From Ornithinibacillus caprae (GTDB lineage Bacteria > Bacillota > Bacilli > Bacillales > Amphibacillaceae): 64,000 nucleotides of DNA. Below are positions 52,808-54,849 of this stretch, piece by piece. The position numbers and the translations under genes are program-made. Each line of letters begins with the position of its first letter. The first letter of the stretch is position 1. The notes beneath the pieces were generated by a model, which was not told the DNA's origin, made no database searches, and was given only the letters and a program-made list of their open reading frames with translations. The stretch lies in the NCBI RefSeq assembly GCF_009728145.1, contig NZ_WOCA01000005.1:62001-126000 (forward strand), read 5' to 3'.

Positions 52808-52915
52808 TTATCTCCCCCTATTCGTAAACAATGACACGACAGATAGTATTATTAATAAAGGCATTGGTACTAACAACCAAAACCAGGTTGCACCAGATAC
52901 TGCAAACTCCTCCAT
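52808..52915 (-). CDS. 35-residue symporter accessory membrane protein
   Basis: A short reverse-strand frame: ATG at 52915, stop TAA at 52808-52810. It starts MEEFAVSGATWFWLLVPMPL, continues as one membrane helix (LIILSVVSLF) and ends TNRGR. GGAAGGGG precedes it by eight bases. It ends three bases before the symporter ATG. A protein family named symporter small accessory protein is known upstream of SSS transporters, and size, position and hydrophobicity agree. Confidence 0.8.
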   Translation of the reverse strand: MEEFAVSGATWFWLLVPMPLLIILSVVSLFTNRGR

Positions 52916-53153
52916 AATTGATACCCCTTCCTGTTTACTCGATTCTGCCCAAATCGGATTTTGAGAAATAAGCGAACTAATCAATATTATCTCTTTACCT
53001 CGAATTTTTATAAAATTATAAATTCACTCTTCCCGTAACTTATCATAACACAACCTTTTAAAAAAACTACCTATTTTTGTCGAATATATGAAAATACTTG
53101 TATAAAAAGTCTAAAAATGGTATGTTTATTAGTTTAGCATTTATTAAAAAACA
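52916..53153. other. Promoter region of the symporter genes
   Basis: About 240 AT-rich bases between the peptide gene terminator and the accessory gene. It must contain the symporter promoter, possibly with osmotic control, but I cannot pick one with confidence. No other feature is seen. Confidence 0.4.
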
Positions 53154-53194
53154 ACAAAAAAAACGCCTGAAATAGGTTCCACGCTACTTCAGGC
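53154..53194 (-). terminator. Terminator of the regulator-peptide operon
   Basis: GCCTGAAGTAG and CTATTTCAGGC pair with one mismatch and are followed on the reverse strand by eight T residues. It lies 60 bases after the peptide gene stop. Confidence 0.85.
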
Positions 53195-53255
53195 AAATCT
53201 ATCATATATAAGTAATAGGGTAAAAAAATTGGATTACTGACAAGCTTTTGGTTGA

Positions 53256-53408
53256 TTAAAAATCGAATGATGTGTTAATAGACATTGCTTTAAGAATACT
53301 AGGTTCAGATTCACCTGTTGCTACATCAGTTGGTTGATTATCTTGGGTAAATAAAAACCCACCTACTAATAGAGTACCTAATGCGATAGCTGCAATCATT
53401 TTTTTCAA
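53256..53408 (-). CDS. Signal-peptide precursor (PapR/NprX-like) of the adjacent regulator
   Basis: A 50-residue frame starting at TTG 53408, seven bases after AAAGGAGGGG. Residues 1-20 are an export signal (MKKMIAAIALGTLLVGGFLF), then an acidic polar linker (TQDNQPTDVATGESEPS) and the C-terminus ILKAMSINTSFDF. PapR, the signal of PlcR in the Bacillus cereus group, has the same size and layout and ends LPFEF; the shared F-acidic-F end is striking. It starts 14 bases after the stop of the HTH-TPR regulator on the same strand, the usual RRNPP arrangement. The mature signal is probably a 5-8 residue piece at the C-terminus (inference). Confidence 0.82.
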   Translation of the reverse strand: MKKMIAAIALGTLLVGGFLFTQDNQPTDVATGESEPSILKAMSINTSFDF

Positions 53409-53422
53409 TCGTCTCCCCTCCT

Positions 53423-54688
53423 TTATATATTAACTACTTCCTCATATGTGAGGTTAGCTAGCTTATAATATTTAACGGAGTCTTTATACCTTCCTACTTT
53501 TTCAAAATGCTTTGCAAGCATGTTTGAATAAACAATTAAATTACCATAATCTTTACGTTTTTGTAGGTAAGGTAAAAATTCCTCCATTACTAATGAAGTA
53601 AATTGTTCATGTTGCTCACTTATTGCATAACTGAAAGTATGAATTATATACTCATACAGCCTATGATTTACATTATCTGTAGATAGTTGTAATAAATGTT
53701 TTGCTCTTTCTAATTCTTTAGTTGCTTGATCAAAGTTTTGTATTTTATAATATTCTTTTATTAGATTAGTTAAACCTAATAACCTTTCATTTATTTCTAA
53801 CTTTTCATCTTCTACTACTTCAATAAAGTGTTTAATTGCTTCTTTCGAGTCTCCAACAGAAGAATATAAGTATCCTAAATTTTGATTTGTCAACTGTATT
53901 ACTTGTTTACTTTTATTTAATTCACCTAAATGTCTAGCTAAATTATAGTGTTTAATTGCTTTATCATACATTTTTATCCTTCGATAGGATATACCAAGTA
54001 CTATGTGGCACTGTGCACAGCGTATGAAATTATATTCCTTTTGAAAAAGATCAATTGCCTTGTTTGCATATTCTATAGATTCTAAGGTGTTTCGAAGTTT
54101 ACTATGAGTAACAGCCATTGTGTATTGAAGATCAGCAACTTGTTCCTCATCTAACTTAATCTGATTAAGTTTATCTTCAGCGTGTTTATACATTCGCATC
54201 GCCTGTGCAAACTCACTATTAAGCGAACTATAATTACCTTTAAACTTATACCAATAAAATAAATGTAAACTATCAAATGACCCAGAAACTTCGTTTAACT
54301 TATTAATCTGTTCCAATGCATTATCATACTCTCCTAAAATAAGAAAGTATCTTATTTTGTGAATTTCAAACATCATTAAACTATCAGAACGGACTAAAGC
54401 TAATAACTCACTTAGTTCATTGTATGTTTCTGTAATCTCTTTCTTGTCATTCACTTCGAAAAGCATATTGAACCAGTTTTCGCATTTCTCTTTGATCGTA
54501 ATATCCTTATCACTATCCAGTTCAATTCCAAGTCGAGTACATAACATACTGATAACTTCAGGACTTGCTTCTGTACGCTGATTTTCAATCTTGGACAAAT
54601 AGGACATAGAAACAATTCCATCGGCAAGTTCTTCTTGTGTCATCCCTTGTTTGACGCGTTGTAATTTGATAAAGGATCCAATTTCCAT
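53423..54688 (-). CDS. RRNPP-family quorum-sensing regulator (NprR/PlcR-like)
   Basis: A 421-residue protein starting at ATG 54688 (MEIGSFIKLQRVKQGMTQEE), preceded by GGGAGGAT; a longer frame is unsupported. Residues 5-60 are an XRE helix-turn-helix (MTQEELADGIVSMSYLSKIE). Residues about 75-415 are a chain of TPR-like helical pairs (GEYDNALEQINKLNE, AQAMRMYKHAEDKLNQI, KAIKHYNLARHLGE, GDSKEAIKHFIEVVED, GRYKDSVKYYKLANL). Length and layout match NprR (about 423), whose TPRs bind a re-imported peptide. It is co-transcribed with its presumed signal gene. Targets are unknown. Confidence 0.88.
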   Translation of the reverse strand: MEIGSFIKLQRVKQGMTQEELADGIVSMSYLSKIENQRTEASPEVISMLCTRLGIELDSDKDITIKEKCENWFNMLFEVNDKKEITETYNELSELLALVRSDSLMMFEIHKIRYFLILGEYDNALEQINKLNEVSGSFDSLHLFYWYKFKGNYSSLNSEFAQAMRMYKHAEDKLNQIKLDEEQVADLQYTMAVTHSKLRNTLESIEYANKAIDLFQKEYNFIRCAQCHIVLGISYRRIKMYDKAIKHYNLARHLGELNKSKQVIQLTNQNLGYLYSSVGDSKEAIKHFIEVVEDEKLEINERLLGLTNLIKEYYKIQNFDQATKELERAKHLLQLSTDNVNHRLYEYIIHTFSYAISEQHEQFTSLVMEEFLPYLQKRKDYGNLIVYSNMLAKHFEKVGRYKDSVKYYKLANLTYEEVVNI

Positions 54689-54803
54689 ATTGCTATCCTC
54701 CCACATATTTGTTTCTATTACTATTTGCTTAGTTATATAATAACATAAATTTTGAATATTCATATTGGGAAAGTTGTGGTACAAAAGTACCCTTTAAGCC
54801 CAA

Positions 54804-54849
54804 AAAACTTTCCTACTTTCCTAATTTGAGGAAAGTAGGAAAGTTTTTG
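54804..54849 (-). terminator. Perfect 20-bp hairpin upstream of the regulator gene
   Basis: AAAAACTTTCCTACTTTCCT and its exact complement enclose a six-base loop. On the reverse strand a T-run follows. It is the second hairpin after pruA (the first is at 54931-54959), so it could be a back-up terminator or lie in the regulator leader as an attenuator. GGTACAAAAGTACC, a smaller palindrome, lies at 54779-54792. Confidence 0.7.

Follow-up and report, generated by a model that had tools for sequence, protein, structure and literature searches.

Among peptide-sensing receptors, Rap proteins have no helix-turn-helix (HTH) domain and target response regulators. RRNPP signals are described as usually C-terminal (PMC10075063); PapR7 occupies this position, PapRa7 is internal in its precursor (PMC3519770), and NprX is said to break the C-terminal rule (PMC10075063). 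For Rap systems, propeptides that hold several pheromones have been described (excerpt of PMC11343458), and atypically large NprR propeptides carry tandem copies in 17/17 cases (excerpt of PMC9765709). The same paper counts NprR-type receptors in Virgibacillus; elsewhere, PlcR is assigned to a five-TPR clan (excerpt of PMC12700828) and RRNPP_detector predictions amount to 34 clusters (excerpt of PMC10075063). RRNPP pairs, multi-pheromone propeptides and internal heptapeptides are therefore already in print, as far as these excerpts go (PMC9765709, PMC10075063, PMC11343458, PMC3519770).

A pair of genes of this type lies in the window, a 64,000-nucleotide stretch of the Ornithinibacillus caprae genome. 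Its features are as follows.

53423–54688, minus strand: receptor/transcription regulator, 421 aa, XRE HTH plus TPR, RRNPP type (ORF list, Pfam, structure matches, orthologs)
53417–53422, minus strand: ribosome binding site AGGAGG of the pro-pheromone gene (sequence)
53256–53408, minus strand: pro-pheromone gene, 50 aa, TTG start (ORF list, ortholog loci)
53349–53408, minus strand: signal-peptide region, precursor residues 1–20 (precursor alignment; judged by eye)
53313–53348, minus strand: polar linker, precursor residues 21–32 (sequence)
53292–53312, minus strand: proposed pheromone core ESEPSIL, residues 33–39 (conservation, tandem repeats in relatives, co-variation)
53259–53291, minus strand: variable C-terminal tail KAMSINTSFDF, residues 40–50, proposed to be trimmed (precursor conservation)
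53164–53195, minus strand: intrinsic terminator of the pair, 12 base pairs plus a run of eight T (terminator prediction)

The receptor frame extends from ATG 54688 to a stop at 53423. An alternative frame of 453 aa opens with a TTG that lies upstream from the predicted −10 element (54737–54747), which makes the ATG the better start. The pro-pheromone frame follows 14 nt after the receptor stop and runs for 50 codons from TTG 53408 to the stop at 53256. All parts of this arrangement that the original prediction had described (421-residue HTH-TPR regulator, 14-nt gap, TTG-started 50-codon frame, strong ribosome site and terminator) were confirmed in place. The receptor matches HTH_3 (E 3.9e-12, residues 7–58) and TPR_12 (E 2.4e-12), and its 421 aa and TPR repeats place it within the RRNPP(A) range of 250–500 aa; with the adjacent exported propeptide, the pair bears the signature of the RRNPP_detector families, an adjacent exported propeptide plus a TPR receptor of 250–500 aa (excerpt of PMC10075063). 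Signal peptides were called by eye (MKK plus a hydrophobic stretch). The precursor gave no match over the cut-off in Pfam and NCBIfam (PhrK model, E 0.1), and a related precursor reached E 0.0023 at best against Phr_nterm. The pair is flanked by genes for P5C dehydrogenase upstream and PutP downstream. Within 3-kb flanks of 80 named loci, P5C dehydrogenase recurs in 35/80, PutP in 35/80 and GatC in 61/80; since this neighbourhood is kept in part only, no link to proline use is implied. A short membrane-protein frame, MEEFAVSGATWFWLLVPMPLLIILSVVSLFTNRGR, sits right before putP in the window (52808–52918, minus strand), and the same small protein is found downstream of the receptor in L008, L111 and L114. 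A viral origin of the receptor was discarded, as viral contigs gave just two partial matches (39% over residues 3–58 and 28% over 1–82).

A receptor search in 61 genomes gave matches in 47, with at least 46% identity in 23 (own genome included). All 23 loci of this first set, that of the window among them, have at the same spot a small ORF whose beginning resembles a signal peptide. The larger set comprised the best 80 of 121 loci from a scan of named genomes, plus the window; counts based on 79 receptors leave out L118 and L131, whose receptor frames are broken. A precursor gene is present beside 69 of these 79 intact receptors (window included), which, with the 23/23 above, bears out the receptor/pro-pheromone pair of RRNPP layout. 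Among the best 80 of 121 loci, the closest named relatives are Oceanobacillus limi (87%), then Ornithinibacillus and Paucisalibacillus species. In loci of about ten named genera, the two genes have stayed side by side and in the same direction. One record, titled Roseburia sp. 1XD42-34 and contributing L101, L102 and L118, is Virgibacillus-like and probably mislabelled or contaminated. The situation that had been named as counting against the pair, an intact receptor with no peptide, does occur in 10/79 loci (four Aquibacillus, six of the Oceanobacillus sojae/oncorhynchi group), against 69/79 that keep the peptide gene; examination of the sequences upstream and downstream of these ten receptors revealed no recognisable precursor. 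All ten show at most 46% identity, and other members in this range retain the peptide gene. Position 221 is L or I, not F, in the four Aquibacillus receptors, and N270 is lost in two of the ten (L123, L125).

When a profile of the 23 orthologs was compared with solved structures, NprR ranked first (E 4.2e-26), followed by Rap105 (1.2e-24), a second, unnamed regulator chain (5dbk) and RapH. The single receptor sequence placed RapF (1.8e-14) and RapI (6e-14) slightly ahead of NprR (8e-14). Rap TPR proteins are thus among the best PDB matches; unlike Rap, the receptor has a DNA-binding domain, the HTH_3 at residues 7–58. The anticipated likeness to NprR in size was upheld. The idea of a PlcR-like receptor was not, PlcR being absent from the 28 single-sequence structure matches and from the best 60 of 78 profile matches.

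With the NprR-NprX system of the Bacillus cereus group, whose receptor has an HTH and nine TPRs, the locus shares an HTH plus TPR receptor of similar size and the residues of the tetramer interface: Y219 and F221, equivalent to NprR Y223 and F225, are kept in 23/23 orthologs. Overall identity is low, and the functional contacts of NprR (list taken from an excerpt of PMC4970707) diverge. Three of the four Spo0F contacts, D107, Y118 and E188, are replaced by R/L100, K111 and V/I184, the fourth, Y223, being kept. The NprR peptide site (R126, Y165, W167, H201, N306, D309, R343) is not kept overall, the equivalents being mostly G119, G/N/S158, F/Y160, K197 and variable residues at 304 and 339; N306 is kept in 12/23. 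These replacements bear on the proposal that the pair is an NprR/NprX orthologue with both NprR functions, a Spo0F-binding sporulation inhibitor without peptide and a transcription activator with it. The best profile match, the similar length and the tetramer residues agree with such an orthologue, and NprX SKPDIVG can be written in the register of SEPSILK, but with the three Spo0F contacts exchanged and the peptide contacts R126 and D309 and the Y165-R343 pair lost, we consider it unlikely, and strict orthology was rejected because the contact residues fail. Retention of the tetramer residues together with the absence of three of four Spo0F contacts leaves room for an NprR-like activator function, and the receptor may work like the activator form of NprR.

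The original prediction took the last five to eight residues of the precursor, ending in NTSFDF, as the signal. The conserved part of the precursor proved to be internal: ESEPSIL in the window and xx[E/H]P-x-[I/V]-[F/L] overall. When 59 distinct single-copy precursors were aligned without supervision, Pro36 proved invariant and Glu/Asp33 and Glu/His35 dominant, followed by I/V38 and F/L39. Tail columns 41–47 have entropies of 2.8–3.25 bits, and core column 34, at 3.3 bits, varies just as much. Mean pairwise identity is 45% for the core heptamers and 15% for the last seven residues (29% with the best of five offsets); the core used for these figures was found by a proline-based pattern, a bias in its favour of which the unsupervised alignment is free. 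Furthermore, 9/69 precursors contain 2–6 copies of the core. The constant unit of each array, as read by eye, is 7–8 residues long and ends at F/L, and the spacers vary. Three of the nine arrays (L109, L112 and L124) end exactly on a core unit; these precursors are from Sediminibacillus terrae, Terribacillus halophilus T-h1 and Weizmannia acidilactici. Further arrays are SKEHEPSIFSDFFA in L022 and HESHPDPQSVIEVA in the distant L024.

The tail is not devoid of regularity. Its last residue is F in 32/59 precursors and F, L or Y in 47/59, and its length is 9 in 32/59; the frequent F and the common length suggest some constraint, which may guide trimming. One could propose that the pheromone is, as with PapR, formed by the C-terminal end (NTSFDF or longer), the EPSIL stretch serving only for processing or export. 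The precedent of PapR7 (excerpt of PMC3519770), the usual RRNPP position (excerpt of PMC10075063), the prevalence of F, L or Y at the end and the fairly constant tail length are all in line with this proposal, which is nonetheless very unlikely given that identity falls from 45% in the core to 15% in the tail, that the repeated unit of the arrays is the core, with three of nine finishing on it without a tail, and that the core residue preceding the proline tracks a receptor residue (see below). We therefore abandoned the C-terminal pheromone as the main reading: comparison of the precursors indicates that the signal is a short internal stretch and not the precursor end. As judged by sequence, the precursor departs from the PapR scheme of a C-terminal heptapeptide signal. 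The suspected likeness to PapR thus fails for the NTSFDF end and reappears inside: ESEPSIL, PapR7 (ADLPFEF) and PapRa7 (CSIPYEY) are all seven residues long with Pro at position 4. Unlike here, papRa lies upstream of plcRa. EPSIF did not occur among the literature matches listed.

The receptor residue in question is encoded at the following position.

54098–54100, minus strand: codon of receptor Lys197 (aligned with NprR H201), which co-varies with the pheromone residue that precedes the proline (position counted from the ATG)

It was one of 13 NprR positions looked up, and all 421 columns were scanned; the NprR residues consulted include N275. In NprR, the Lys of SSKPDIVG, the residue just before Pro, stacks on H201 and W167 (excerpt of PMC4970707). 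In an alignment of low identity, H201 corresponds to Lys197 and W167 to Phe160 of the window receptor; thus the Lys of NprX facing H201/W167 would be replaced here by a Glu facing Lys197 and F/Y160. Among 69 focal pairs, the ten precursor-less receptors being excluded, Lys197 accompanies a Glu before Pro (P-1) in 51/51 cases and a different residue in 8/18 (Fisher 1.3e-7), and column 197 ranks 2 of 421 for association with P-1. Tree simulations reached the focal association in 2/4000 runs with a count statistic and in 1/4000 with the Fisher statistic; departures from Glu at P-1 map to seven places on the receptor tree, plus one reversal. The exceptions that keep Lys197 are five Gln cores (L102, L103, L105, L112, L113) and three of nine focal His cores (L093, L094, L095).

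Paralogous and distant HTH-TPR receptors (L185–L204, L024–L029) have precursors of their own with another proline core (EEPYPW, EEPDPW, HPDP). In a second set made up of paralogs and distant members, whose paralog cores were chosen by eye and several of whose paralogs look mutually orthologous, Lys197 is present with 12/12 Glu cores versus 2/10 non-Glu cores. The 27 rows correspond to 26 genes (L025 = L189), and 22 were used, rows with no peptide found (L189, L191, L204, L025, L030) being left out. After pooling, Lys197 is found with 63/63 Glu and 10/28 non-Glu residues, column 197 ranks 1 of 421, and the association was reached in 0/5000 tree simulations. Receptor columns 175, 199 and 201 associate with the P-1 residue too. 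Co-variation with the receptor, proposed at the outset as a check on the peptide end, is seen for P-1 of the core and position 197; the peptide end itself varies. Lys197 itself would lie in the TPR groove.

Inspection of the region upstream from the receptor gene uncovered an inverted-repeat promoter (54737–54848) absent from the original prediction. It consists of three parts.

54803–54848, no strand assigned: predicted distal operator, a perfect inverted repeat of 20 bp with two ACTTTCCT units in either arm (sequence; genus loci)
54765–54774, minus strand: predicted proximal operator ACTTTCCCAA by the −35 region (comparison of loci)
54737–54747, minus strand: extended −10 TATGTTATTAT of the receptor promoter (comparison of loci)

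The last AGGAAAGT is separated by 34 nt from TTTCCCAA (54765–54772), which is followed after 17 nt by the extended −10. The 20-bp inverted repeat is complete or nearly so in ten other genus loci (L002–L011). TTTCCCA combined with the extended −10 is present in 53/69 pair-bearing loci (mononucleotide shuffles, 0/4050); nine others have TTTCCCA at −87 to −98 with a different −10 spacing, and seven have neither in place. A search for the composite GGAAANNNGGAAAN{33,41}TTTCCCAA returned 51 places in 44/159 family genomes, and the reversed-pattern control 1.

The inverted repeat might be a terminator or RNA element, with TTTCCCAA belonging to another regulator. An A/T run at each end of the repeat would suit such a role, as would the retention of TTTCCCA and −10 by 6/10 precursor-less receptors and the TTTCCCA found upstream in three of 20 paralog loci (L190, L195, L198); but the upstream gene has a separate terminator of its own (54958–54931), and across genera TTTCCCAA and its −10 distance recur with the 20-bp repeat mostly shrunk to shorter half-sites. 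In addition, the composite recurs before unrelated genes and appears on the receptor strand in 0/20 paralog loci (L185–L204), 13 of which carry AGGAAAnnTTTCCT upstream instead (8 exact, 5 near). We regard a terminator or RNA element as improbable and favour a two-part operator. A single distal unit, ACTTTCCTACTTTCC, with one mismatch allowed, gave chance-level extras (10 control places in 11 genomes), and three such places (L159, L160, L162) contained no composite. Of seven further places examined for the promoter-only pattern TTTCCCAA-N-TATGnTAnnAT, two are inside coding frames and three lack the distal unit, so that among them only L207 and L208 are site-like.

In the six loci of the Oceanobacillus sojae/oncorhynchi group with no recognised precursor (L121, L122, L125, L127, L128, L129), TTTCCCAA-17-TATG(G/A)TACAAT is kept and the leader is longer, roughly 150–210 nt. 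With their TTTCCCAA and −10, these receptors could listen without a signal of their own, as has been proposed for a class of Rap, AimR and PrgX receptors (excerpt of PMC9765709).

Across 11 genus genomes, the composite is found at the 11 receptor promoters and at six other places; related patterns added two more (G002:C6, G003:C3). Downstream from the site in the window's own genome are two proteins, one of 272 aa whose start resembles a signal peptide and a membrane protein of 106 aa. The former weakly resembles the geobacillin-26 family (E 8.9e-4, 19 bits, cut-off 40) and had no match on plasmids. Elsewhere the sites precede 191-aa and 213-aa proteins with signal-peptide-like starts and small partners, and proteins of 238, 348 and 151 aa without a family. 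One site leads into a DUF3021 operon, behind which lies a paralogous receptor, and another into a cluster that includes a Lant_dehydr_C/thiopeptide-type protein (Pfam E 7.2e-35). The latter is a bacteriocin-type biosynthesis cluster behind the promoter element in a genome matching Ornithinibacillus halotolerans (L182, 2599–10312, plus strand); besides the Lant_dehydr_C protein, SagB-like, E1-like and ABC transporter frames were recognised by eye. The −10 has five or six matches, at most 1 base from the receptor spacing, at L176, L178, L180 and L182 (shuffles, 0.077 per site), four at L177 and L181 (shuffles, 0.37 for four or more) and three of 6 at L179 and the own-genome site. Comparison of the target proteins with one another gave no convincing kinship (best E 0.019). 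Because the −10 matches are uneven across the eight sites and no antimicrobial-type match other than the thiopeptide-type cluster exceeds a curated cut-off, antimicrobial targets are put forward as a hypothesis: the composite-bearing promoters, some before secreted or bacteriocin-type genes that differ by species, are possible targets of the receptor. Among the open-licence papers listed, we found no detailed account for this Bacillota group.

Altogether, the comparisons make it highly probable that the locus is a self-contained, self-regulated RRNPP quorum-sensing operon, NprR-related but forming a separate subfamily, with an internal core signal. Its precursor would be exported by Sec and cut by proteases on both sides of the core to release a heptapeptide-sized peptide, which an oligopeptide permease would bring back in. 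Re-import, part of the original prediction, stands as a possibility, given 11 matches to PF00496, the oligopeptide-binding protein family, in the genome. The Glu of the peptide would touch Lys197 inside the TPR groove. Once loaded, the receptor, possibly tetrameric by analogy with NprR, would bridge the distal AGGAAAGT units and the proximal TTTCCCAA by the −35 region, thereby activating its own operon. Within the excerpts available, we did not find a description of this subfamily with its signal, of the Glu-Lys197 coupling or of the promoter element.

A broader, tentative proposal, to which we give somewhat less credence than not, is a specificity code in this RRNPP branch and its paralogs whereby one TPR residue reads P-1 (Lys197 for Glu; His201 plus Trp167 for the Lys of NprX), combined with a genus receptor that drives, via two operator parts 34 nt apart, a small, fast-changing regulon of secreted antagonism. 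This regulon would comprise the geobacillin-26-like protein, the thiopeptide-type cluster and orphan secreted proteins paired with small membrane proteins or lipoproteins. If the code holds, pherotypes would be predictable from the receptor; if the regulon does, quorum-controlled weapons would be swapped behind one conserved promoter. With the candidate signal placed in an internal heptapeptide and no longer at the C-terminus, the right synthetic peptide would be tested. The analysis also offers one checkable residue pair for RRNPP specificity, which holds across orthologs and paralogs, and a predicted operator that lets targets be found by pattern, some of which point towards quorum-controlled antimicrobial genes.
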